Below are positions 18,481-31,948 of a DNA stretch of 64,000 bases, piece by piece (position 1 is the stretch's first letter; each line of letters begins with the position of its first letter). Below the pieces are notes generated by a model. The model saw only the letters and a list, made by a program, of their open reading frames with translations, had not been told where the DNA came from and made no database searches. Source of the stretch: Clostridia bacterium. GTDB lineage: Bacteria; Bacillota; Clostridia; Oscillospirales; Acutalibacteraceae. The position numbers and the translations under genes were made by a program. Where the stretch lies: NCBI GenBank assembly GCA_017503785.1, contig JAFVSK010000002.1, positions 18,571 through 82,570 on the forward strand. The letters run 5' to 3'.

Positions 18481-18524
18481 ATATACGGTGAATTGTGGCC
18501 TTGTGCATGAAAGGAGTGACGAGG

Positions 18525-19655
18525 ATGGCCTATTTGGATAACAGCGCTACTACCGTGGTGTGCGATGCAGCGGTGCAGGAAATGGTGCGCGTTATGACTG
18601 AGGTGTACGGAAATCCTTCGTCGCGCCATGCGATGGGCCTGCATGCCGAGCAGGCGTTGGCCAAGGCTCGGGAACAGGTGGCTGCACTTGTTGGCGGTAA
18701 GGCCGAGCGTGTGTTTTTTACCTCGGGCGGTACAGAGGCCAACAATCTGGCGATCTTAGGCGCGGCAGCCGCGTTTCGAAAACCGATGGCGGCGATCACC
18801 ACGGCGTTGGAGCATCCGTCGGTGGCGGCGTGCTTTGACGAGCTGGAAAAGCAAGGTTGGGCGGTGACACGGCTGATGCCGCTGGCTGACGGCACGGTTA
18901 GCGTGCAGCAGGTGGCGGAGGCGTGCACTGCGGATACGGCGCTGGTGAGCATTATGGCAGTGAACAACGAAACAGGTGCTCGCTTCGACATTGCGGCGAT
19001 GGCCGAAGAGGTTCATGCAATTGCGCCGCAAGCGCTGTTTCACACCGATTGCGTGCAGGCGGCAGGCAAGTTGCCGCTGAAGGCGGAACGCTGGGACGTG
19101 GATCTACTGTCGGTGAGCAGTCATAAGCTGCACGGGCCGAAGGGCTGCGGAGCGTTATATGTGAAAAACAAGCAAAAGCTGCGGGCACGGCAGGTGGGCG
19201 GCGGTCAGGAAAACGGACTGCGCAGCGGCACTGAGGCGTTGCCGGCTATTGTTGGCTTTGGTGCGGCGGCTGCGGCTGTGGCACCGTTTGCCGAGCAGCA
19301 ACGACATTATGAGCGGTTAAAGGCCGTGCTGTGCGAAGAATTGAACGACTTGCCGCAGGTACGCTGGCATTTGCCGCCGAACGGGGTGCCGTATATTGTG
19401 AATTTGTCGCTGGTGGGACATCCCAGCGAAACGGTGCTGAACTTTTTGAGCGGACGAGGAATCTACGTGTCGGCCGGTTCGGCGTGTGCCAAGGGCAACC
19501 GCAGTTCCGTGTTAAAGGCCATGGGGCTGCCGAGCGGAGAGATCGATTCGTCGTTGCGGGTTAGTTTTTGTTATGGGAATAGTGAGGATGAGGTACGAGC
19601 TTTGGCGGAGGCGCTGCGCGAGGCGGCTACGTCGCTGCAAGGGAGGCGTACATAA
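18525..19655 (+). CDS. Cysteine desulfurase (IscS/NifS-like)
   Basis: This 376-residue PLP enzyme takes sulfur from L-cysteine as a persulfide. The N-terminal LDNSATT, SGGTEANNLAI, PLP lysine in SSHKLHGPKG (K201) and active-site loop SAGSACAKG (C321) are all present. The ATG at 18525 is chosen for AAGGAG spacing; an upstream in-frame start lacks a site. It overlaps the next gene by one base. With thiI two genes downstream, it most likely feeds sulfur to 4-thiouridine formation in tRNA. A general role in Fe-S assembly is also possible. Confidence 0.9.
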   Translation: MAYLDNSATTVVCDAAVQEMVRVMTEVYGNPSSRHAMGLHAEQALAKAREQVAALVGGKAERVFFTSGGTEANNLAILGAAAAFRKPMAAITTALEHPSVAACFDELEKQGWAVTRLMPLADGTVSVQQVAEACTADTALVSIMAVNNETGARFDIAAMAEEVHAIAPQALFHTDCVQAAGKLPLKAERWDVDLLSVSSHKLHGPKGCGALYVKNKQKLRARQVGGGQENGLRSGTEALPAIVGFGAAAAAVAPFAEQQRHYERLKAVLCEELNDLPQVRWHLPPNGVPYIVNLSLVGHPSETVLNFLSGRGIYVSAGSACAKGNRSSVLKAMGLPSGEIDSSLRVSFCYGNSEDEVRALAEALREAATSLQGRRT

Positions 19656-20680
19656 TGGATAAAGTAAAGAGTATAGGCGAAAAGCTGCTGCGCGGGCTGC
19701 GGTCGGTGATTCCGATGGCGGGGGATTCGCGGCGGGAATGGATTCGCAAGCTGGCGTTCTTGCTGGCGCTGACGGTGTTTTTGTGCTCGGGATACTATTT
19801 GATCGACGAGGTGTGGTTGCAGCCGCGGTATACGCAGGAGGTAACGCATTCGCTGCGCGATCTGTATACCAAGGGCGAAGAGCCGTCGGCCGACACCGAC
19901 GAGGATGAGCTTCCCGTGGTGTTCCCCGAGGGGATGGATCCGTCGTTTGAGCCGCTGTACCGTCGCAATCAAGACGTGACGGGGTGGCTGACGTTTAAGG
20001 CGGATGCCGATGGCACGGCGGAGGATCTGTTCGGCGGGGCGATCGACAATCCCGTGGTGCAGGCCGAGGATAACGATTATTACTTGTACCGCGATTTTTT
20101 GGGTAAGGACGATAAGGCCGGTACGCTGTTTATGGATTATCGCAACAACCTGCTGAAGCTCAGCGAGGAGCGTAACGTGATCATCTATGGGCATAATCTT
20201 AACAGCAAGCTGATGTTTTCGCGGTTTAATTGGCTGGTTTCGGGCAAGGTGGAGCGCGCACGGATGCTTTCGACGCTGACGTTGGATACGCTGTACGGTG
20301 AGAAGATCACGTACAAGGTGTTTGCGGTGATGGTGGTGGATGCCGATGCCACCGGCAATGCGGCGTTTGATTACATTCGCACGGAGTTCCGCACCGATGC
20401 GGCGTTTGAAACGTTTGTTGAGAAGATCCGCGCACGGTCGTTGTATGATTTCGGTGATGTGGACGTGTTGCCGACCGATCAGGTGCTGACGCTGTCTACC
20501 TGCGGTACCAAGCGCGATACTACCCTGAAAAACAGCCGCACCGTAATTGTGGCGCGCCGACTGCGCGAGGACGAGGCGGCCACGGTGGATGCCACTAAGA
20601 CGGTGCTGAACGAGGACGTGCTGATGCCGAAGGCGTGGTACATTAACAAGGAGCTGGCGCTCCCGGAGGAGTATCAATAA
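19655..20680 (+). CDS. Class B sortase
   Basis: This 341-residue protein has an N-terminal membrane helix (about residues 31-50) and an external sortase domain. The catalytic triad is intact: His180 in IIYGHNL, Cys283 in LSTCG and Arg301 in IVARR. The order and spacing fit class B, which joins proteins with (N/S/P)PxT-type signals to peptidoglycan. It overlaps the stop of the cysteine desulfurase and the start of thiI by one base each, so it is translated inside a sulfur-transfer unit. A possible substrate in this window is the giant GH16 protein at 56530, which ends in a QPVTG signal. Confidence 0.85.
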   Translation: MDKVKSIGEKLLRGLRSVIPMAGDSRREWIRKLAFLLALTVFLCSGYYLIDEVWLQPRYTQEVTHSLRDLYTKGEEPSADTDEDELPVVFPEGMDPSFEPLYRRNQDVTGWLTFKADADGTAEDLFGGAIDNPVVQAEDNDYYLYRDFLGKDDKAGTLFMDYRNNLLKLSEERNVIIYGHNLNSKLMFSRFNWLVSGKVERARMLSTLTLDTLYGEKITYKVFAVMVVDADATGNAAFDYIRTEFRTDAAFETFVEKIRARSLYDFGDVDVLPTDQVLTLSTCGTKRDTTLKNSRTVIVARRLREDEAATVDATKTVLNEDVLMPKAWYINKELALPEEYQ

Positions 20681-21882: not shown

Positions 21883-24800
21883 ATGAACGCAGAAATACTG
21901 ACGGTAGGCACCGAGCTGCTGTTGGGGGATATTCTAAATTCCAACAGTCAGTTTTTGTCCCGTGAGCTGGCGATCTACGGCATTGACACGTTGTATCAAT
22001 CGACAGTGGGTGACAACCGCGAGCGGCTGGAAAGCACGCTGGAGGTGGCGTTGTCGCGCTGTGATATGGTGGTGCTCACCGGTGGGTTAGGTCCTACCGA
22101 GGATGATCTTACCCGTGAGACCGTGGCGGAGGCGTTGGGACTTCCGCTGGTGCTTCACAAGGAAAGCGAAGCAAGTATTTTGGCCTATTTTGAGGCGACC
22201 GGCAAGGAGTTTACCGAAAACAACCGCAAGCAGGCCATGCTGCCCGAGGGGTGCACGGTGTTTCCGAACCATCACGGTACGGCACCGGGCTGCGCCGTGG
22301 AAAAGGACGGTAAATGCGTGATCTTGCTGCCCGGCCCGCCGAAAGAGCTGATTCCCATGTTCGTTAACAGCGTGGCGCCGTATTTGCAGCGTTTTTCGGG
22401 CGAGACCATTCGTTCGCACACCATTGGTGTGTTTGGTATTCCCGAGGCCGCGATCGACGAGCGGCTGCACGATTTGATGGAAATGCATAATCCGACGGTA
22501 GCGCCGTATGCCAAGTCCGGCGAGGTGTTGCTGCGCGTGACGGCAAAGGCCGCAAACGACGAAGAAGCCGATGCCTTATGTGCACCGGTGATCGAACAGA
22601 TCCGCGAACGGCTGGGTGCGGCGATCTACGGCGTGGACACGGGCAGTTTAACGGAAACCGTGGTGGCGCTGCTGAAGGAGCACGAGAAGAAGATCGCCAC
22701 GGCGGAGTCGTGTACGGCGGGATTGCTGTCGGGACGGCTCACCGAGGTGCCCGGGGTGTCGCAGGTGTTTGAGTGCGGCATTGCTGCATATTCGCCCGAG
22801 ATCAAGCGCCAGGTGTTGGGTGTGCCGGAGGCGGTGCTGGAAAATCAAGGAGCGGTATCTCCCGAAACCGCCGGTGCTATGGCGGTGGGTGCTCGCCGTG
22901 TGGGCGGTGCGGATATTGGTATTGGCATTACCGGTGTGGCCGGCCCCGAACCGAGTGAGGGTAAAGAGGTTGGCACGGTGTATGTGGCGTTGGCTGACGA
23001 TCGCCGCGTGTGGGTGAAGAAGATCTTTGCCGGCCACGGGGCCGAAGATCGCGAGCAGATTCGTAACGCGGCCACGCTGTATGCGTTGGATATGACTCGC
23101 CGGTATTTGGAGGCGGCGCCCGGCGTGATGGCAGGCGGTCAGCTGCTGGAAAAGGTACAGCAGCCATCGGATGCTGTGACACGCAAGCACTTTGCGATGA
23201 ACGGCCGCCGCTGGATCTGGCTTTCGGCCGTGGTTGTGATCGTGCTGGCTGCATTGCTGATCGGCTATAAAGGCTTTTTAGAGCCGTTTTTGAACGAAAA
23301 AGAATTTGATTCGCTGTGGGCGATCTATATGCAGGAGCAGGAGGTAACCGACACCGACGAGGTGGTGGAGTACCCCGACGGCATATTATCGCAGTTTATG
23401 TCGCTGTATCGGGTGAACCAGGACGTGCGCGGGTGGTTGACCGTGGGAAACACGTCGATCAATTACCCCGTTACCCTGGATCCGTCCGAGGGGTATTACA
23501 ACGGCAGAGATTTTTATAAGAAGACCTCGGCCTACGGTGTGCCGCATTTGCTGTCCACGGTGACGTTGGTGCCCGGAAAGAGCAATCGCTCGTTGGTGAT
23601 CTACGGTAACAATCCGGAAAATGGGCAAATGTTCTCGGAGTTGGCGGAATATACGAAGCTTACTTTCTTGAAAAAGAACCCGACGATTGATTTCAGTACG
23701 CTGTATCAAGAAAACAGCTACAAGATCTTTGCCGTGGTGTTGGTGCAGGACGGGGATACCTCGGCCGACGCCTTTGATTACACGCAGGATACCTTTGAAA
23801 CAGAAGAAGATTTTCTGTATTACGTGGCGCAGCTGCGCCGCCGTTCCTTGTTTGATACGCCCGTGGGCGTGCAGGAGGGCGATGATCTGCTGTTGCTGAC
23901 AACGCCGATCGAGTACAGCTTTAAAAATGCACGTATCGTGGTGGCGGCGCGGCGCGTTCGCACGGGTGAGGAGAAGGCAAACGATCTCAGCAAGGCGCGC
24001 GCCAACCGCACGGTCGTGATGCCGGCGGTGTGGCAGGAGATGCAAGGTGGCACGACGGCTACCGAGCAAACGACGACCACGGTGGAGTCGACGACAACGG
24101 AACTGACCAGCAGTTCTACCACCGTGACCACCACTACCGTTAAGAAGACCACGACTACGGCAAAACCGACAACAACCAAGCCCGGTACAACGACGGGAAA
24201 AACCACGGAGCACAACGAAGAGGGCGATCAGTTGGTGGGGGAAACCACCACGAAGCCCAGCACGACCACGGCGTCGCGTCCGTCGGTGACGCGGCCGCCC
24301 GATCAAGCGGAGGACCGTGTGGATGCTCTGGAGGGCACGGTGCAGGGTACGGTGTCGGAATATGAGTTTATGAGCTACTTTGCGCTGAAAAACACCAACG
24401 CCGCGGTGACGGATCCGATGCAGGATAAGGACGGCGTGCTACGCCCCAAGACCAAAGAGGAACTGCAACGCGCGGTTACGTATATCGTGAAGGGCGAGCT
24501 GGGCAGCGCCAAAACCATGGCGGCCTCTACCGAAGCGCAAAAGGCGCAGGCGGTGGTGTCGTATACCTACATACTGTGGTATAACGCTTACTATCAAAAG
24601 CCGTATACCTATGCCTTGAAGCCGTTGGATCTTTCTAACCAATGGGATAAAAAGATCTACGATGCCGTGGGTGAGGTGCTGGGTGTTAAGCTGCTGGATA
24701 TCACCAAAACCAATGTTGAAGATATGCTGCTGCAGGTGACGTATTCGGCGGCAACGGGCGGGTATTCCGCTTCCAGCAATCGCGTGTGGAGCGGCAAGCT

Positions 24801-25365
24801 GCCGTATGCGCAAAGCGTGGTCAGCAAGTATGATGACGTGAACTATTACGCCAAATACGGTGGCGGCGGTAGCTTTATTAACACGGTTACCCTGTCGCGC
24901 ACGGAGCTGAACAACAAGGTGAAGACCTGGTTTGAAAACAACGTGCAGAACCGCTATCCCACCTATGTGATGCCCGAGGAGCAGTTTACGTTGAAAGACG
25001 GTGAGTTGCCGTTGCAGGCGCTGACCTACGACGGTGACGGCTCGGCGGGTACGGGCGACAGTTGGAACTACGTGTTCTACACCAACTTCTATTACGTGGA
25101 TAACCGCGGCAACAAAAAGCAGTTGACCGGCTATAACATGCGTTCGGCGCTGGGGTTGCGTTCGCACGCCTTCCGTGTGACGTACGATGCGGCGACCGAC
25201 ATGGTGACCATCACCACACAGGGCTGGGGTCACGGCGTGGGCTTGAGCCAAATGGGTGCCGTGGGGTACGCCAACGAAGAGGGCTGGAGCTACGTGCAAA
25301 TTCTTCGCCATTACTTCTCCGTAACCGGCAGCACGGCGCATCAGGTAACGATGCCGGTGTGGTAA
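21883..25365 (+). CDS. CinA fused to membrane-anchored pseudo-sortase B and SpoIID domain
   Basis: A single uninterrupted 1160-codon frame. Residues 1-415 are a full CinA (N-terminal MoCF-type domain, TVGTELLLGDI; C-terminal nicotinamide-nucleotide amidase-type domain with ESCTAGLLSGR). A membrane helix follows (about 443-463). Residues 465-700 align with the neighbouring sortase B, but the catalytic His is Asn576 (VIYGNNP), the Cys is Thr674 (LLLTTPI), and only Arg690 remains. A Thr-rich linker spans about 723-805. Residues 830-1150 are SpoIID/LytB-like, with the presumed catalytic Glu872 in VKGELG and the ending GWGHGVGLSQMGA. Topology would place CinA inside the cell and the rest outside. 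An internal start near 23128 (GGAGG at 23109-23113) could also give a separate wall protein. Confidence 0.85.
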   Translation: MNAEILTVGTELLLGDILNSNSQFLSRELAIYGIDTLYQSTVGDNRERLESTLEVALSRCDMVVLTGGLGPTEDDLTRETVAEALGLPLVLHKESEASILAYFEATGKEFTENNRKQAMLPEGCTVFPNHHGTAPGCAVEKDGKCVILLPGPPKELIPMFVNSVAPYLQRFSGETIRSHTIGVFGIPEAAIDERLHDLMEMHNPTVAPYAKSGEVLLRVTAKAANDEEADALCAPVIEQIRERLGAAIYGVDTGSLTETVVALLKEHEKKIATAESCTAGLLSGRLTEVPGVSQVFECGIAAYSPEIKRQVLGVPEAVLENQGAVSPETAGAMAVGARRVGGADIGIGITGVAGPEPSEGKEVGTVYVALADDRRVWVKKIFAGHGAEDREQIRNAATLYALDMTRRYLEAAPGVMAGGQLLEKVQQPSDAVTRKHFAMNGRRWIWLSAVVVIVLAALLIGYKGFLEPFLNEKEFDSLWAIYMQEQEVTDTDEVVEYPDGILSQFMSLYRVNQDVRGWLTVGNTSINYPVTLDPSEGYYNGRDFYKKTSAYGVPHLLSTVTLVPGKSNRSLVIYGNNPENGQMFSELAEYTKLTFLKKNPTIDFSTLYQENSYKIFAVVLVQDGDTSADAFDYTQDTFETEEDFLYYVAQLRRRSLFDTPVGVQEGDDLLLLTTPIEYSFKNARIVVAARRVRTGEEKANDLSKARANRTVVMPAVWQEMQGGTTATEQTTTTVESTTTELTSSSTTVTTTTVKKTTTTAKPTTTKPGTTTGKTTEHNEEGDQLVGETTTKPSTTTASRPSVTRPPDQAEDRVDALEGTVQGTVSEYEFMSYFALKNTNAAVTDPMQDKDGVLRPKTKEELQRAVTYIVKGELGSAKTMAASTEAQKAQAVVSYTYILWYNAYYQKPYTYALKPLDLSNQWDKKIYDAVGEVLGVKLLDITKTNVEDMLLQVTYSAATGGYSASSNRVWSGKLPYAQSVVSKYDDVNYYAKYGGGGSFINTVTLSRTELNNKVKTWFENNVQNRYPTYVMPEEQFTLKDGELPLQALTYDGDGSAGTGDSWNYVFYTNFYYVDNRGNKKQLTGYNMRSALGLRSHAFRVTYDAATDMVTITTQGWGHGVGLSQMGAVGYANEEGWSYVQILRHYFSVTGSTAHQVTMPVW

Positions 25366-25459: not shown

Positions 25460-25549
25460 ATGAAAAACCGCGTCTTTACAGCAGAATACGCCTACTTTAA
25501 CTTTTACTTTTGCTTTAGCAATGGTAAGAGTGCTTTCTGCTGCCGGTAA
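25460..25549 (+). CDS. Phe/Tyr-rich leader peptide
   Basis: A 29-codon frame preceded by AAAGGTG (25447-25453). It encodes six Phe and three Tyr; residues 10-19 read YAYFNFYFCF, seven aromatics in ten. It lies between a strong promoter and an intrinsic terminator in front of the operon that makes Phe and Tyr. This is the classic layout of transcription attenuation by ribosome stalling, known from E. coli pheA. The stop codon lies beside the putative antiterminator strand (25540-25547), as the mechanism requires. No T-box elements are visible in this leader. Confidence 0.8.
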   Translation: MKNRVFTAEYAYFNFYFCFSNGKSAFCCR

Positions 25550-25620
25550 TTTAAGGTGAAAACCTTTGATAATCCTGTAACAACAGGCCCGCAGTGAAAG
25601 CTGCGGGCCTTTTAATTTTT
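25540..25620 (+). terminator. Attenuator with candidate antiterminator
   Basis: The terminator is a perfect 10-bp stem (25585-25594 with 25601-25610) followed by a T-rich tract to 25620. The segment CTGCCGGT (25540-25547) can pair with GCCCGCAG (25587-25594) over 7 of 8 positions including one G-U pair, destroying the terminator. A ribosome completing the leader peptide would cover this segment; one stalled on Phe/Tyr codons would free it. A small AAGGT-GAAA-ACCTT hairpin (25553-25566) lies between. Confidence 0.75.
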
Positions 25621-25636
25621 CTGGGAGGAATAGACC

Positions 25637-26635
25637 ATGATTGCTGTAATCAAACAAGGAGTTCCTGCAGATCAGGTTCAAAATCTGATTGCGTGGCTGG
25701 AGACGCAGAAGGTTGCCGTGCATGTTTCCGAGGGCGAATATAACACGGTGCTGGGCTTGGTGGGCGACACCACGAACGTGGATATGGAGCTGCTGCAAAA
25801 CCTGGAGATCGTGGAAAACGTGATGCGCATTTCCGAGCCGTTTAAAAATGCCAATCGTAAGTTCCATCCGGAGGATACGGTGGTGGACGTGAGCGGCGTG
25901 AAGATCGGTTCGGGGAACTTTGCGGTGATTGCCGGCCCGTGCTCGGTGGAGTCGCGCGAGCAGATCATTGACGTGGCTGAGCAGGTGAAGGCGGCCGGTG
26001 CCACATTGTTGCGCGGCGGTGCTTTTAAGCCGCGCACCTCCCCCTACGATTTTCAAGGCTTGAAGGCCGACGGATTGGCGCTTTTGGAGGAAGCCAAAAA
26101 GGATACCGGTATGCCGATCGTTACGGAGATCATGAATGCGAACCACCTCCCTTTATTTGAAAACGTGGATCTTATTCAGGTGGGCGCTCGCAATATGCAG
26201 AACTTTGAGCTGTTGAAGGAGCTGGGGCGTATTCGGAAGCCGATTTTGCTCAAGCGCGGCTTGGCCAGCACCTTAAAGGAGCTGCTGATGAGCGCGGAAT
26301 ACATTATGGCCGGCGGTAACGAGCAGATCATTCTGTGCGAGCGCGGTGTGCGTACCTTTGAAACCTACACCCGCAACACGTTGGATCTGTCGGCGGTGCC
26401 GATGCTGAAGGAGCTGTCGCACCTGCCTGTGGTGGTGGATCCCAGCCACGCCAGCGGCATCAGCCGTTTGGTTAAGCCGATGGCGCTGGCGGCGGCCGCT
26501 GCCGGTGCCGACGGCTTGATGATCGAAGTGCACAACAATCCTGCCAAGGCGTTGTGTGACGGTGCGCAATCGTTGACGCCCGAGCAATTTGCCGACGTGA
26601 TGAACGGCGTTGCCAAAATTCGGGAGGTTTTATAA
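25637..26635 (+). CDS. aroF: 3-deoxy-7-phosphoheptulonate synthase (DAHP synthase, type I-beta)
   Basis: This 332-residue enzyme joins phosphoenolpyruvate and erythrose 4-phosphate, the first shikimate step. An N-terminal ferredoxin-like regulatory domain (about 1-70), as in the Thermotoga enzyme, precedes the barrel. Signatures are AGPCSVES, RGGAFKPRTSPYDFQG, KRGL and VDPSHASG. In that type the N-terminal domain mediates feedback inhibition by Tyr/Phe. It is the first structural gene of the operon, 17 bases after the attenuator, with GGGAGG as ribosome site. Confidence 0.95.
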   Translation: MIAVIKQGVPADQVQNLIAWLETQKVAVHVSEGEYNTVLGLVGDTTNVDMELLQNLEIVENVMRISEPFKNANRKFHPEDTVVDVSGVKIGSGNFAVIAGPCSVESREQIIDVAEQVKAAGATLLRGGAFKPRTSPYDFQGLKADGLALLEEAKKDTGMPIVTEIMNANHLPLFENVDLIQVGARNMQNFELLKELGRIRKPILLKRGLASTLKELLMSAEYIMAGGNEQIILCERGVRTFETYTRNTLDLSAVPMLKELSHLPVVVDPSHASGISRLVKPMALAAAAAGADGLMIEVHNNPAKALCDGAQSLTPEQFADVMNGVAKIREVL

Positions 26636-26637
26636 GT

Positions 26638-27486
26638 ATGACGGTAGGCGTTGTGGGCTTGGGCCTTATTGGAGGTTCCTTGGCCAAAGCCTTAAAGGCC
26701 AACACCCGGCACACGGTGCTGGGCTGCGATAAAGATGACAGCGTGCGGCAGTATGCCGAGCTGATCGGCTGTATTGACGGGGCGCTGACGGAGGAAACCT
26801 TGCCGCAGTGTGAGTTTGTGCTGCTGGCGGTGTATCCTACGGCAACCACCGAATACGTGGCGCGGCACGCACAGCATTTTGCCAAGGGTGCGGTGGTGAT
26901 CGATTGCGGTGGCGTTAAGCGCCGTATTTGTGAGGCGTGCCGCCCGATTGCACGCGAACACGGCTTTACGTTTATTGGGGGCCACCCCATGGCCGGCTTG
27001 CATCGCTCGGGGCTCAAATACGCTTCGGCCGATCTGTACGAGGGTGCTTCTATGATCTTAACACCCGAGGATACGCGCGATATCGTGCTGCTGGAAAAGG
27101 TGACGGCGCTGTTGAAGGCGATGGGCTTCGGTTCGGTAACGGTGACTACCCCCGAACAGCACGATGAGATCATTGCGTTTACCTCGCAATTGGCGCACGT
27201 GGTGTCCAACGCCTACGTAAAAAGTCCGCGTGCGCAGGTGCACAAAGGCTTTTCGGCAGGAAGCTACAAGGATCTTACCCGCGTGGCCCGGCTGAACGAA
27301 ACCATGTGGACAGAGCTGTTTTTGGAAAACCGCGATAATCTGCTTGAGGAGATCGACACTTTGATTGCTTCGTTGGCGGAATATCGCGATGCGTTGGAAA
27401 ACGGCGACGGTGAAACGCTGCGCGCGTTATTGCGTGATGGCAGCGACCGTAAGGAAAGGATCGACTACGGAAATGGAAACCATTGA
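26638..27486 (+). CDS. tyrA: Prephenate dehydrogenase
   Basis: This 282-residue enzyme oxidises prephenate to 4-hydroxyphenylpyruvate on the way to tyrosine. It has the NAD-binding GLGLIGGSLAKAL near the N-terminus and the substrate-binding GGHPMAGLHRSG. No C-terminal ACT domain is present, so feedback control at the enzyme level may be weak. It starts 2 bases after aroF, and its 3' end overlaps aroB by 14 bases, indicating translational coupling. Confidence 0.93.
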   Translation: MTVGVVGLGLIGGSLAKALKANTRHTVLGCDKDDSVRQYAELIGCIDGALTEETLPQCEFVLLAVYPTATTEYVARHAQHFAKGAVVIDCGGVKRRICEACRPIAREHGFTFIGGHPMAGLHRSGLKYASADLYEGASMILTPEDTRDIVLLEKVTALLKAMGFGSVTVTTPEQHDEIIAFTSQLAHVVSNAYVKSPRAQVHKGFSAGSYKDLTRVARLNETMWTELFLENRDNLLEEIDTLIASLAEYRDALENGDGETLRALLRDGSDRKERIDYGNGNH

Positions 27487-28531
27487 GGTTCGCGCTTCTC
27501 GTTGTTATACCATTGTTATTGAAGAGGGCCTGCTTGCTCGCACGGGTGAGCATTGCGCGCAGGTGCTGCACGGCAAAAAGGTGTTGCTGCTCACCGATGA
27601 AACGGTAAACGCGTTATACGGCGATACGGTGGAGCGTTCGCTGTGCGAAGCGGGCTTTGAGGTGGCACGGCTGGCTGTGCCGGTGGGCGAAGGATCCAAG
27701 AGCACGGCGGTGTATTTGCAGGTCGTGTCGTTCCTCGCTGCGAACGGCTTTACCCGCAGCGATGCCATTGTGGCGTTGGGCGGTGGCGTGGTTGGCGATC
27801 TGGGCGGCTTTTGCGCAGCATCGTATCTGCGCGGTATTGGCTTTGTGCAGATCCCTACAACGCTATTGGCGTGTGTGGACTCCTCGGTGGGCGGTAAAAC
27901 GGCCGTGAACCTGCCCGAGGGCAAAAACCTGCTGGGGGCTTTTTATCAGCCGTGGCTGGTGCTGTGTGACCCGTGTGCGCTGCGCACGCTGCCGAAGGCG
28001 ATCTATGCCGACGGCATGGCCGAGGTGATCAAGTACGGCATGATCCGCGACAGCGAGCTGTTTGCGCTGCTGGAGAGTGAAAAACTTCGGGATGCAGAGA
28101 TCATTTCGCGGTGTGTGTCTATCAAGCGCGACGTGGTGCAGGCTGACGAACGGGATCACGGTTGTCGGCAGCTGCTCAATTACGGGCACACCGTAGGGCA
28201 CGCTGTGGAAAAATGCAGCAACTTCGGCATTTCCCACGGCAGTGCGGTGGCGATCGGTATGGCGATCGTTGCTCGTGCAATGGTGGCGATGGGGACGATG
28301 GCCGCAAAGGATTGCGCACGGTTAACGGCGTTACTGAAAAAGCACGGACTGCCGACAACGTGCGATTTTTCCGCAGCGGCGTTGTACGAGGTGGCGTTGA
28401 GTGATAAGAAACGTGCCAACGATATGCTGGGGCTTATCGTGTGCCCGACCGTTGGCGACGGACAGATCAACAAAATTCCGGTGACGGCGTTGATGGAGTA
28501 TATTGAGAAGGGGACAGCACCATGCAAGTGA
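27473..28531 (+). CDS. aroB: 3-dehydroquinate synthase
   Basis: This 352-residue NAD- and metal-dependent enzyme cyclises DAHP to 3-dehydroquinate. The signatures GGGVVGDLGGFCA, IPTTLLACVDSSVGGKTAVN and the metal-ligand region LLNYGHTVGHAVE are present. The start at 27473 gives the family's usual length; a longer frame beginning inside tyrA is rejected. AAGGAAAGGA lies at 27451-27460. It overlaps tyrA by 14 bases and aroA by 10. Confidence 0.95.
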   Translation: METIEVRASRCYTIVIEEGLLARTGEHCAQVLHGKKVLLLTDETVNALYGDTVERSLCEAGFEVARLAVPVGEGSKSTAVYLQVVSFLAANGFTRSDAIVALGGGVVGDLGGFCAASYLRGIGFVQIPTTLLACVDSSVGGKTAVNLPEGKNLLGAFYQPWLVLCDPCALRTLPKAIYADGMAEVIKYGMIRDSELFALLESEKLRDAEIISRCVSIKRDVVQADERDHGCRQLLNYGHTVGHAVEKCSNFGISHGSAVAIGMAIVARAMVAMGTMAAKDCARLTALLKKHGLPTTCDFSAAALYEVALSDKKRANDMLGLIVCPTVGDGQINKIPVTALMEYIEKGTAPCK

Positions 28532-29754
28532 CGGTAAGTGGACATACGCTGACCGGCTGTGTGGCGGTGCCTGCTTCTAAGTCGGTGGTGCATCGATTGC
28601 TGATCTGCGCCGCCTTGAGCGACAAGCCGACGGTGCTTACCGACACGACACTGTCGCAGGATATTACCGCAACGGTGGATTGCCTGAACGCCTTGGGCGC
28701 AGAGATTTGCGTTGACGGTGACCGCATAACGGTGCAGCCGATAACGGCGCCAAAAGACGAGGCGTTGTTGGATTGCGGTGAGAGCGGATCGACCATGCGG
28801 TTTTTGTTGCCGGTGGCAGCGGCGCTGGGCGGCGGTGCTGCATTGACGGGGCGCGGGAGGCTGCCGCAGCGGCCGTTATCGCCCTTGTATGAGCTGCTTT
28901 GTGAAAACGGATGCGAGTTATCGCCGCAGGGGACGTTTCCGCTAACGGTGGCGGGTAAGCTTACGGGTTGTCGATTTACGATCGACGGCGGGGTGAGCTC
29001 GCAGTTTATCAGTGGATTGCTGATGGCGGCGCCGTTGTTGGGTCAGCCTGTGGAGCTTTGCGTGACAGGAACCGTGGAATCGCGGCCGTATATGGATTTA
29101 ACGGTGGCGGCGATGCGTCGCTTTGGTGTGACGGTGACGGAAACCGAGAGCGGATTTGCCGTTTCGGGGCGGTATCGTTCACCGGGGACGGTGGCTGCTG
29201 AGGGCGATTGGTCGAATGCCGCGTTTTGGCTGGTGGCTGAGGCCATTCTACCGAAGGCATCGCTTACGGTGACAGGGCTGGATGAGCAGTCGCTGCAGGG
29301 GGATCGCGCTATCAAGGACTTGATCGAAGCGACGAACGGCTTACAAACGCCGCTGACGGTGGATGCGGCACAGATTCCCGACCTGGTGCCGATTTTGGCG
29401 GTGCTGGCGGCGGCAATTTCCGGGCGCAGTGTGATCGGCAATGCGCGGCGGTTGCGTATTAAGGAAAGCGACCGTTTAAGCAGTGTCCACGCGATGTTGA
29501 CTGCACTTGGCGGTACGGTGTCGATGGGCGATGATTTTCTGGTGATTGAAGGGACCGGCAAGCTGCGCGGCGGCACGGTGGATGCCTGCAACGATCATCG
29601 CATTGCGATGGCGGCGGCGGTGGCGGCGTGCCTCTGTGAGCAGCCGGTTGTGATAGAGGGCGCGGAAGCGGTGCGAAAATCGTATCCTCACTTCTTTGCT
29701 GAATTTTCCAAGAGAGGGATGAGCGTATGTCCTCCGTATTCGGGAGAAAACTGA
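28522..29754 (+). CDS. aroA: 3-phosphoshikimate 1-carboxyvinyltransferase (EPSP synthase)
   Basis: This 410-residue enzyme adds enolpyruvyl from PEP to shikimate 3-phosphate. Visible motifs are PASKSVVHRLLI, CGESGSTMRFLLPV (PEP-binding loop), VSSQFISGLL, RIKESDRL and NDHRIAMA. The first motif has KSVVHR where most have KSxxHR. It is slightly shorter than the E. coli enzyme (427). It overlaps aroB by 10 bases and aroC by 28. Confidence 0.95.
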   Translation: MQVTVSGHTLTGCVAVPASKSVVHRLLICAALSDKPTVLTDTTLSQDITATVDCLNALGAEICVDGDRITVQPITAPKDEALLDCGESGSTMRFLLPVAAALGGGAALTGRGRLPQRPLSPLYELLCENGCELSPQGTFPLTVAGKLTGCRFTIDGGVSSQFISGLLMAAPLLGQPVELCVTGTVESRPYMDLTVAAMRRFGVTVTETESGFAVSGRYRSPGTVAAEGDWSNAAFWLVAEAILPKASLTVTGLDEQSLQGDRAIKDLIEATNGLQTPLTVDAAQIPDLVPILAVLAAAISGRSVIGNARRLRIKESDRLSSVHAMLTALGGTVSMGDDFLVIEGTGKLRGGTVDACNDHRIAMAAAVAACLCEQPVVIEGAEAVRKSYPHFFAEFSKRGMSVCPPYSGEN

Positions 29755-30791
29755 AGATCAGTATTTTCGGACAATCACACGCCGAGGCCATTGGCGTGGT
29801 GATCGACGGCTTCCCTGCGGGCTTTGCGGTTGACCGCGAGGCGCTGCAAGCGTTTATGGCGCGCCGTGCGCCGGGAAACAACGCGTTTTCCACGCCGCGC
29901 AAGGAAGCCGATGAGGTGGAATTTCTTTGCGGCTTGGTGGACGGCGTGACCTGCGGTGCGCCTATCACGGCGGTGATACGGAACACCAACACGCGGTCGG
30001 GCGATTATCGGGAGCTGTTTGATCAGCCTCGGCCGTCGCACGCCGATTATCCTGCCGATATTCGCTATGGCGGCGCACAAGACGTGCGCGGCGGTGGGCA
30101 TTTTTCGGGACGGCTTACGGCGGCGCTGTGCGTGGCAGGCGGCTTGTGCTTGCAATATCTGGAAAAGCAGGGTGTTGCCGTGGGTGCGCACATTGCAGCC
30201 ATCGGGGGCGTGAAGGATACGCCGTTTGATGCGGTGCACGTGACGGCCGGTGATTTCCCAAAAGGAACCTTTGCTGTGTGTGATGCGGCCGCCGGTGAAC
30301 GGATGCGGGCAGCGATCGAAGCGGCGCGCAGCGAGGGCGACTCCGTGGGTGGCGTGATCGAATGTGCCGCGGTGGGGTTGCCTGCCGGTGTTGGTGATCC
30401 AATGTTTGACGGCTTGGAGAACCGTTTGTCGCAGGCGGTGTTTGGTATTCCCGCAATACGCGGCATTGAGTTCGGCAACGGCTTTGAGGCGGCAACGCTG
30501 TATGGGTCGCAGAATAACGACTGTTACTACGACGATAACGGCACGGTGAAGACCTACACCAACCACCACGGCGGTGTGCTGGGCGGCATCAGCACCGGTA
30601 TGCCGCTCTTGTTCCGTGTGGCGGTGAAGCCCACGCCGTCGATCGGCAAGGAGCAGCAAACGTTGAACCGTCGTACCGGGCAGGTGGAGCCGCTGGTGGT
30701 GCGTGGACGGCACGATCCGTGTATCGTGCCGCGTGCGGTTGCGTGTGTGGAAGCGGCATGTGCCGTTGTGTTGTGTGATTATTTACTGTAA
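29727..30791 (+). CDS. aroC: Chorismate synthase
   Basis: This 354-residue FMN-dependent enzyme converts EPSP to chorismate. Signatures include GQSHAEAIGVVIDGFPAG, RPSHADYPADIRYGGAQD, GGGHFSGRLTA and NHHGGVLGGISTGMP. The start lies 28 bases inside aroA, so translation is coupled. Fifteen bases separate it from pheA, which has its own AGGAGG. Confidence 0.96.
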   Translation: MSSVFGRKLKISIFGQSHAEAIGVVIDGFPAGFAVDREALQAFMARRAPGNNAFSTPRKEADEVEFLCGLVDGVTCGAPITAVIRNTNTRSGDYRELFDQPRPSHADYPADIRYGGAQDVRGGGHFSGRLTAALCVAGGLCLQYLEKQGVAVGAHIAAIGGVKDTPFDAVHVTAGDFPKGTFAVCDAAAGERMRAAIEAARSEGDSVGGVIECAAVGLPAGVGDPMFDGLENRLSQAVFGIPAIRGIEFGNGFEAATLYGSQNNDCYYDDNGTVKTYTNHHGGVLGGISTGMPLLFRVAVKPTPSIGKEQQTLNRRTGQVEPLVVRGRHDPCIVPRAVACVEAACAVVLCDYLL

Positions 30792-30805
30792 GGAGGATAA
30801 CCGTT

Positions 30806-31948
30806 ATGGGAATTGAGCAATTGCGCGAGGAGATCGATGCGATCGATAAACAGCTGGTGGAGCTGTTTGTAAAGCGCATGGGTGTTTCGGCTCAGGTGGC
30901 CGATTATAAAAAAGAGAACGGGCGCTCGGTGCTGGATCCGTCGCGCGAGCGGCAGCTGCTGGAGCGCGTGTCGGAATTGGCCGGCGAGGAGCTGGAGTCG
31001 CAAACGCGCGTGCTGTATAATTTGATCCTCAGCTTGAGCCGTTCGTATCAAAATCATCGGTTGGGTTTTGACAGCGCGCTGCTGGAAAAAATCCGTGCCG
31101 GTATTAACGATACCGCCAAGGTGTTCCCTGAGCGGGCATTTGTGGCCTGTCAGGGCGTGGAGGGCGCGTATTCGCAGCTGGCGTGTGATAAGCTGTTTTC
31201 TGCCGCAAACATTATGTACATGAATTCGTTCGAGGGCGTGTTCAACGCCGTGGACAAGGGCTTGTGCCGTTACGGTGTTCTGCCGCTGGAAAACAGTTCG
31301 GCCGGTTCGGTGAATCAGATCTACGATCTGATGCTGAAATACAAGTTCCATATCGTGCGCAGCACGCGGTTGCATATTTCGCACGTGTTATTGGCGAAAA
31401 AAGGCGCAAAACTGGAAAATATTAAAGAGATCTACTCGCACGAGCAGGCTATTCAGCAATGCAGCAGCTTCCTGCAGGGCTTAAAGGGCGTGCAGGTGAA
31501 CGTTTGCGAAAACACCGCCATGGCGGCCAAGGCCGTGGCCGAGAGTGGCCGCGATGACGTGGCGGCGATCTCGTCGGAATCGTGTGCGGCGCTGTATGAT
31601 CTGGAGATCTTGGAAGAGGCGCTGCCGAACGTGGACAACAACTACACGCGGTTTATTTGCATTGCCAAGCCGTTGGAGATCTATCCCGGTGCTCAGCGTA
31701 CCAGCTTGATGCTGGTGCTGCCGCACAAGCCGGGTGCGTTGCACAGCATTTTGTCGAAGTTCTATTCGTTGGGTGTGAACCTGCTCAAGCTGGAAAGCCG
31801 CCCGATTCCCGGCCGTGATTTTGAGTTTATGTTCTATTTCGATATTGAGGTGTCGGTGTATTCCGATGCGTTTGAAAACCTGCTGTCGCAGCTGCAGGCC
31901 GAGGCGGATAAGTTCCAGTATCTGGGCAGCTATACCGAGGTTGTGTGA
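30806..31948 (+). CDS. pheA: Bifunctional chorismate mutase/prephenate dehydratase (P-protein)
   Basis: This 380-residue protein turns chorismate into prephenate and then phenylpyruvate. Residues 1-90 form an AroQ-type chorismate mutase (LREEIDAIDKQLVELFVKRM). About 110-285 is the dehydratase (GVEGAYSQLA; PLENSSAGSV; NNYTRF). About 292-380 is an ACT domain with GALHSIL and ESRP, which normally binds Phe for feedback inhibition. Supplying the only visible chorismate mutase, it serves both the Tyr and Phe branches. Its stop overlaps the next start by one base. Confidence 0.95.
   Translation: MGIEQLREEIDAIDKQLVELFVKRMGVSAQVADYKKENGRSVLDPSRERQLLERVSELAGEELESQTRVLYNLILSLSRSYQNHRLGFDSALLEKIRAGINDTAKVFPERAFVACQGVEGAYSQLACDKLFSAANIMYMNSFEGVFNAVDKGLCRYGVLPLENSSAGSVNQIYDLMLKYKFHIVRSTRLHISHVLLAKKGAKLENIKEIYSHEQAIQQCSSFLQGLKGVQVNVCENTAMAAKAVAESGRDDVAAISSESCAALYDLEILEEALPNVDNNYTRFICIAKPLEIYPGAQRTSLMLVLPHKPGALHSILSKFYSLGVNLLKLESRPIPGRDFEFMFYFDIEVSVYSDAFENLLSQLQAEADKFQYLGSYTEVV

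Follow-up and report, generated by a model that had tools for sequence, protein, structure and literature searches.

The gene and its cluster

The subject of this analysis is one gene at positions 21883-25365 of a 64,000-nucleotide stretch of DNA (hereafter, the window) from a Clostridia bacterium of the family Acutalibacteraceae, order Oscillospirales (GenBank assembly GCA_017503785.1, contig JAFVSK010000002.1, positions 18,571 to 82,570 of the forward strand). The gene is a single frame of 1160 codons without a stop, and it joins CinA, a membrane helix, a class B sortase domain that lacks catalytic residues (the pseudosortase), a Thr-rich linker and a SpoIID/LytB domain. It stands last in a cluster ordered iscS, live sortase, thiI and fused gene. 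Window coordinates of the parts and of the cluster genes are as follows.

21883..25365, forward strand: fused gene, CinA - transmembrane helix - pseudosortase B - Thr linker - SpoIID, 1160 amino acids
21883..23112, forward strand: full CinA; MoCF at residues 4-169, KH (CinA_KH) at 178-250, PncC/CinA at 255-409 (Pfam, NCBIfam)
23119..23142, forward strand: junction motif PGVMAGGQ, invariant in the genus and LPxVMAGG-like in the wider clade
23209..23277, forward strand: single membrane helix, about residues 443-465, preceded by an Arg/Lys-rich stretch; hydropathy peak 2.45 at residue 444
23284..24060, forward strand: pseudosortase B domain; YGNN at 23602-23613 (Asn576 for His), LLTTPIEY at 23893-23916 (without Cys), Arg690 kept
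24055..24390, forward strand: Thr-rich linker, 33% Thr across 112 residues (725-836), presumed wall spacer
24388..25362, forward strand: SpoIID/LytB domain; Glu872 at 24493-24504; GWGHGVGLSQMGA at 25222-25260
18495..19655, forward strand: iscS/nifS-like cysteine desulfurase, first gene of the cluster; Aminotran_5, E 1.9e-73
19655..20680, forward strand: live class B sortase; YGHN from 20186, LSTC, Arg kept; TIGR03064, E 1.3e-38, 132.7 bits
20680..21849, forward strand: thiI; ThiI, E 2.1e-69

Domains of the fused protein

Profile searches and hydropathy define the order of the parts. The CinA equivalog NF001813 (NCBIfam) matches residues 1-410 over its full length with 513.6 bits, against a cut-off of 379. 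Residues 449-687 match the class B sortase family (E 1.1e-27; 96.9 bits, under the NCBIfam equivalog cut-off of 153.75), and residues 881-1146 match SpoIID_LytB TIGR02669 with 84.3 bits (NCBIfam cut-off 83.3). Pfam finds the three CinA domains strongly, SpoIID (PF08486) weakly (E 0.029, 15.5 against a cut-off of 23) and no sortase domain in the fused protein. A single hydrophobic peak follows CinA, in 19-residue windows that start at 441-452. Given the basic stretch ahead of this helix and the well-established positive-inside rule, CinA should be cytoplasmic and the remainder of the protein should lie outside. The initial annotation of this DNA had proposed an uninterrupted 1160-codon frame in which a normal full-length CinA forms the first third and is followed by a membrane helix, a sortase-B-like domain, a Thr-rich linker and a SpoIID/LytB domain, and this description agrees in every part with the open frame, the equivalog score, the profiles and the hydropathy plot.

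The sortase domain had also been called dead, and rightly so. Asn576 occupies the position of the catalytic His, and no Cys occurs in the protein beyond residue 411, which excludes a displaced nucleophilic Cys; Arg690 is retained. Judged by these residues, the domain is catalytically dead. Relatives with the same four parts likewise have no Cys at the catalytic column, and their His position holds Asn, Ser or Lys. By profile and model, a sortase B fold is nonetheless predicted to be present: an alignment profile of the pseudosortase (A3) compared with solved sortase B chains matches 4ux7 at E 3.3e-35, and an AlphaFold2 model of the domain (predicted local distance difference test score, pLDDT, 87.1; predicted template modelling score 0.88) retrieves SrtB chain 2oqw at E 1.8e-18 and 5b23 with a template modelling score of 0.91 by target when used in Foldseek. 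The fused domain therefore shares fold, profile and Arg with the class B sortases of Clostridioides difficile (SrtB, 4ux7) and Clostridium perfringens (SrtB, 5b23), but differs from both in lacking Cys, in carrying Asn for His and in being joined to CinA and SpoIID.

The separate sortase gene at 19655..20680 keeps His, Cys and Arg, as class B sortases do, although its 132.7 bits also fall under the equivalog cut-off of 153.75. All three residues are present in the live sortases of genus members L091-L098, and we regard this gene as the likely active partner of the pseudosortase. Sorting signals score above the family cut-off in five of nine genus genomes. Eight of the 12 sorting-signal matches were inspected: SPATG and PPATG, both from the window's genome, SPDTG, TPDTG, IPATG, IPSTG, and two of the LPETG/LPETD type. 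Three of these eight fit (S/P)PxTG exactly, and PMC4155245 reports that C. difficile SrtB cuts (S/P)PXTG. The live sortase would then anchor proteins bearing these signals. The candidate substrates are located elsewhere in the genomes; inside the cluster, the search covered the domains scanned. In two loci of the window's type, the live sortases (L099:644-2245 and L100:870-2264) have long Thr-rich tails past the catalytic domain that resemble the linker of the fused protein.

At the other end of the protein, Glu872 aligns with the catalytic Glu of SpoIID, which PMC6221140 identifies as E101 in C. difficile. A profile of the arm matches the solved SpoIID 5i1t (E 2.1e-24), and a less certain model (pLDDT 75.5) yields three significant fold matches, every one a SpoIID chain. 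On the strength of its conserved Glu, the arm is probably active and not dead. This Glu is seen in 15 of 19 four-part relatives; two others are truncated by contig ends, and L137 and L139 are unmatched by the pattern. The domain contains no Cys and so has no zinc site of the C. difficile type, which uses ligands such as C140. Profile, model and position of the catalytic Glu are shared with the sporulation SpoIID/LytB lytic transglycosylase; unlike that enzyme, the fused arm is a second SpoIID besides a stand-alone copy, which all nine genus genomes possess. We considered sporulation as the main role of the fusion and rejected it: Spo0A was not found in genome G000 and was found in three of nine genus genomes (the six negatives are incomplete assemblies), yet the fusion and a separate SpoIID are present in 9/9. 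The fusion may still have a sporulation role in the spore-formers.

To our knowledge, described CinA members are soluble, unlike the membrane-tethered CinA of the fusion. The latter shares its MoCF-KH-PncC order and the spacing of its Ser/Lys dyad with the CinA/PncC nicotinamide mononucleotide (NMN) deamidase family of Thermus thermophilus and Agrobacterium. Its motifs are GGLGPTEDD at 22081-22107, ESCTAG with Ser276 at 22705-22722, and the stretch 22786-22806 with Tyr303 and Lys308. The dyad was assigned from the spacing given in PMC5384747 for the PncC residues S31-Y58-K63 of AtCinA; the intervals of 27 and 5 residues are the same in S276-Y303-K308. The catalytic residues of the window CinA are intact, and NMN deamidase and ADP-ribose pyrophosphatase activities are predicted. 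The smallest membrane-anchored form that we observed is the 303-residue CinA frame of locus L182, which consists of the CinA C-terminal part, a basic stretch and a likely helix, with no recognised sortase.

The initial annotation knew of no described protein with this combination, and among the matches listed in the literature searched, which mostly excluded subscription papers, we found no description of a CinA/sortase/SpoIID fusion. Searches for 'pseudosortase' returned no named family in that literature, and searches combining thiI, cinA and sortase returned nothing. The main text of PMC3855486 mentions that CinA is occasionally joined to other domains, which are set aside there, and uses the word 'sortase' 0 times.

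Conservation and selection

Conservation in several species had been proposed as support for a genuine fusion, and the fused frame indeed recurs in 9/9 genomes of the genus and in five other genera. The eight further genus members have 60-71% identity, and in one of them (G003) the frame is split across two contigs. A profile search of a family sample of 398 genomes recovers the non-CinA part undivided within a single frame in at least 16 of them, from six genera (the window's and five others), and CinA was confirmed in the same frame for all 16. Named records carrying the frame include L091-L097, L099, L100 and L102; their sources include ruminant-hindgut metagenome assemblies, Candidatus Avimonas narfia (whose host we take to be chicken) and the Oscillospiraceae bacteria SIG588 and Lab288P3bin192. 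No fusion was found outside the order among the matches listed from the class sample.

Between the close relatives L093 and L094, the ratio of nonsynonymous to synonymous substitution rates (dN/dS) is 0.06 for CinA, 0.05 for the 36-codon joint, 0.04 for the pseudosortase, 0.19 for the Thr linker and 0.10 for SpoIID, and about 0.07 for the live sortase. In the pair L092/L094, the values of CinA, joint, sortase and SpoIID range from 0.04 to 0.06, the linker is at 0.14 and the helix is saturated. The joint is therefore under purifying selection between close relatives. At the greater distance between the window and L091, the pseudosortase value is 0.19. A third pair, L138/L190, was excluded from the argument as it ended before SpoIID and its segment borders are probably wrong; it gave 0.13 for CinA, 0.12 for the helix, 0.19 for 64 codons of the sortase and 0.54 for the linker, and the joint was saturated.

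Gene layouts and trees

The genes iscS, thiI and cinA form a common core in the order, to which the window's family and some others add a class B sortase after cinA. A sortase was scored as live when His and Cys were both present. In layout I, the window type, the order is iscS, live sortase, thiI, and a fusion of CinA, dead sortase and SpoIID; every layout I locus whose contig extends that far has the live sortase in its cluster. Layout II, with 11 loci (L141, L146-L148, L152-L155, L159, L160 and L162; locus L146 is missing no gene, but its sortase has Lys for Arg), runs iscS, thiI, CinA fused to a live sortase, and a dead sortase fused to SpoIID. Four loci resemble layout I without SpoIID on the fused chain (L143, L144, L145 and L192), and CinA is fused to a live sortase with no dead one in L033, L034, L054 and others. 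Relatives that always encode the parts separately would have spoken against a fusion, but this objection fails: the parts are separate in many loci and joined in others. Examples of separate genes are L080 (cinA, sortase, SpoIID), L179 (cinA, live sortase, dead sortase, SpoIID) and L188 (cinA, live sortase, dead sortase fused to SpoIID).

A sortase tree of 146 rows, built by a quick method and with some long branches (a pair of them meeting inside the dead clade), places 44 dead rows in one all-dead clade (Shimodaira-Hasegawa-like approximate likelihood-ratio test, SH-aLRT, 98). Of the 37 dead sortases in frame with SpoIID, 35 belong to this clade, together with nine dead ones that have no SpoIID on their frame, and the clade splits into a group of 27 (26 fused to CinA; SH-aLRT 99) and a group of 17 others (86). 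A separate clade of 24 unites the live sortases of layout I (SH-aLRT 99). Dead copies outside the main clade (L031, L043, L044, L045 and L188) point to further losses or to misplaced long branches. Tree and layouts together imply that the paralogue to which CinA was joined is the dead one in a single lineage, whereas other lineages joined it to live ones. When the fused or unfused state is mapped on a ThiI tree of 93 loci, at least 10 changes are required, whose direction is not readable from the tree.

In a sister lineage, the cluster encodes a further protein, which joins a degenerate CinA-like cytoplasmic part, a helix and a circularly permuted SpoIID, without a sortase (L039, 797 residues; L040, 789; L042, 791; L068, 773). 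Two related proteins, L043 and L046, have the degenerate CinA and the helix only, and L070 has no recognised helix. These seven degenerate full-length CinA proteins (alignment A6), six of them with a helix, adjoin an intact CinA or PncC gene. Comparison of A6 with CinA by hhalign gives a probability of 99.0 and E 2.3e-18, colinear across 298 columns, against control values of 1.6 for sortase and 0.1 for SpoIID; Pfam detects CinA in only one of the seven (E 0.012). The A6 profile matches 86 of 250 family genomes at E <= 1e-8, a count that includes cross-matches to true CinA. Its best E-value is <= 1e-14 in 60 of the 250, with none in the four genus members listed. In the permuted SpoIID (L039:9145-11538, L040:5494-7863, L042:1472-3847, L068:7801-10122 and L045:11734-13098), the GxGHGxGMSQ segment precedes the EALKAQAV-like segment; these are five rows among those with both segments matched.

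A proposed transmembrane scaffold

What the sequences establish is the order of the domains, the lack of the catalytic His and Cys in the fused sortase, the retained SpoIID Glu, the conservation across six genera and the presence of a live sortase in the cluster. From these features, we tentatively propose a single-span transmembrane scaffold that couples CinA to a wall-anchoring module of sortase and SpoIID, a reading to which we assign slightly less than an even chance. CinA would lie in the cytoplasm, the helix would span the membrane, and the dead sortase B and the SpoIID arm would be held outside on the Thr-rich spacer. The pseudosortase might dock or pair with the live sortase, or position it, and the SpoIID arm would be brought to the site where surface proteins are anchored and could open or trim the glycan there. 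CinA, which is dimeric in characterised relatives (an abstract describes the T. thermophilus protein as an asymmetric dimer), might anchor the complex from the cytoplasm and hold the NMN deamidase at the membrane. The coupling that we favour would be structural, through a scaffold that gives its parts a common location and stoichiometry, and not a signal of nicotinamide adenine dinucleotide (NAD) state. In favour of the scaffold we count the recurrence of the frame in six genera, the low dN/dS values, the grouping of most SpoIID-linked dead sortases in one clade and of the layout I live sortases in another, the joins of CinA to dead and to live paralogues, the 10 or more state changes on the ThiI tree, the frame-sharing counts given below, the join of degenerate CinA through a helix to SpoIID, the SpoIID Glu in the four-part relatives and the sorting signals of the genus.

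Other points weigh against this scaffold. Complex formation, expression and activity of the fused protein, and indeed every interaction and activity that we assign to it, are things we infer from sequence. Among the matches listed from a class sample of 391 genomes, there was no stop-free fused span outside G000. Between the window and L091, the proportion of nonsynonymous differences (pN) is 0.27 for the joint and 0.46 for the helix, with synonymous sites saturated, so that over such a distance the joint is not closely conserved. CinA's partner is inconstant, being a live or a dead sortase according to the locus, and 19 of the 93 loci on the ThiI tree have cinA without a recognised sortase beside it, which means that CinA does not need that partner. 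Two dead, SpoIID-linked sortases on long branches (L044 and L188) sit outside the dead clade. The count of neighbours that share a frame, although it favours the scaffold, is to be read with care: among 129 loci (three duplicate loci omitted; the duplicate pair L101/L189 has only SpoIID and adds no pair), sortase and SpoIID are in one frame in 36 of 44 pairs (eight separate) and CinA and sortase in 53 of 82 (29 separate), although the latter share is inflated since loci were partly picked by sortase score.

Decay of the enzyme side belongs with these points. The N-domain motif is absent in 15 of 43 fused proteins versus one of 48 unfused proteins possessing the N domain; the losses fall on 6/17 four-part proteins, 4/4 CinA fusions to a dead sortase and 5/22 CinA fusions to a live one. 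In L097 (the same gene as L008), EACTAG replaces ESCTAG, with loss of the catalytic Ser, and the ITGxAGP block is altered; by these residues, its PncC site is probably inactive. The enzyme side of the fused proteins is therefore often not fully constrained, which counts against readings that depend on both activities of CinA and is consistent with either a scaffold role or relaxed constraint. The tie between nicotinamide-nucleotide repair and a wall-active arm that the initial annotation had drawn was itself an inference, and it suffers from both the varying partner and the decaying active-site motifs.

A broader version, about which we are doubtful, treats the fusion as a two-sided pseudoenzyme module, in which degenerate paralogues of CinA and of sortase B, each tied to a SpoIID arm on a helix, would form a transmembrane complex and couple pyridine-nucleotide metabolism to surface-protein anchoring and wall cutting. 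Its two lineages would be CinA, helix, dead sortase and SpoIID on the one hand, and the sister proteins with degenerate CinA, helix and permuted SpoIID on the other.

Alternative explanations

The main rival to the scaffold, and a serious one even though we consider it rather unlikely, is a passive operon fusion: loss of the cinA stop would have joined the last housekeeping gene of iscS-thiI-cinA to the next gene without functional coupling. Since the product of that next gene would start as a cytoplasmic tail followed by a signal anchor, both halves of the joined chain would still work. Separate cinA and sortase genes are closely packed (-148 to 318 base pairs apart, 23 of 28 within -4 to 82 base pairs), the partner is whichever sortase comes next, live or dead, many joints retain the juxtamembrane PWKGD motif of the sortase, and CinA motifs have decayed more in fused than in unfused proteins, all of which a passive origin would explain. 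It does less well with other packed neighbours in the same 129 loci, which are never in one frame (thiI-cinA 0/88, iscS-thiI 0/65, sortase-thiI 0/23), though these pairs may be less tolerant of fusion; the remaining pairs give zero as well (sortase-sortase 0/29, iscS-sortase 0/21, thiI-sortase 0/8). Nor would it readily account for the purifying selection on the joint between close relatives, the 10 or more state changes on the ThiI tree, or the existence of degenerate CinA joined through a helix to SpoIID without any sortase.

The fused protein might instead sense NAD state, with CinA binding NMN, ADP-ribose or related nucleotides and signalling through the helix to SpoIID and sortase, which would make wall work follow DNA ligase and NAD turnover. 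We judge both the sensor and this consequence improbable. The intact catalytic residues of the window CinA speak for such sensing, as do the degenerate CinA proteins with a helix and SpoIID, which resemble binding-only modules. However, a lone helix with long flexible linkers would hinder signal transfer, and active-site motifs are gone in some fused members.

Still more doubtful is the production of two proteins from one message, with an internal start near 23128, as the initial annotation had suggested, or proteolysis freeing the wall part. The released part would be an ordinary signal-anchored protein, and the ATG at 23128 is kept in 9/9 genus genomes and, across the wider clade, in 25 of 27 rows (L102 has CTG and L182 has GCG), so this much of the suggestion stands. 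The signals expected around a start do not: a purine run 4-12 bases ahead of the ATG occurs in 0/27 rows, the GGAGG of some rows stops 14 bases short of the ATG, and synonymous-site conservation nearby (0.69 against a mean of 0.65) reveals no special constraint. Residues flanking the Met (LPxV-M-AGG) are about as conserved as the Met itself, which is the pattern of a protein motif. A role of PGVMAGGQ in starting or processing was rejected, as the motif looks like a feature of the CinA tail throughout the clade.

Finally, an assembly or base-calling error hiding a stop, which had been considered for 23100-23200 and might seem plausible in a fragmented genome (64 contigs, contamination 6.07), is refuted, as is chance, by the recurrence of the same frame in those 16 or more family genomes of six genera and in the named records.

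Downstream genes

Beyond the cluster lies a run of genes at 25637-31948 whose putative names come from reading translations only, and which resemble DAHP (3-deoxy-D-arabino-heptulosonate 7-phosphate) synthase, prephenate dehydrogenase, AroB, AroA, AroC and chorismate mutase/prephenate dehydratase of aromatic amino-acid synthesis. Just ahead of the DAHP-synthase-like gene at 25637, a 29-codon open frame at 25460-25549, Phe/Tyr-rich when read by eye, is followed by a strong terminator-like hairpin at 25585-25610. This arrangement looks like an attenuation leader of an aromatic operon.

Significance

How the widespread protein CinA fits into cell physiology is unsettled. A join between CinA and wall enzymes that is conserved and has been made repeatedly offers a concrete and testable direction for the role of CinA. 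The fused gene of this gut bacterium hints at an unstudied link between the cell interior and the cell wall, and similar joins have arisen repeatedly among its relatives. In the pair L093/L094, the dead sortase is under selection as strong as that on its live neighbour. The presence together of a live sortase, a pseudosortase and a glycan-cutting arm suggests that surface-protein anchoring and local opening of the wall may be the work of one complex.

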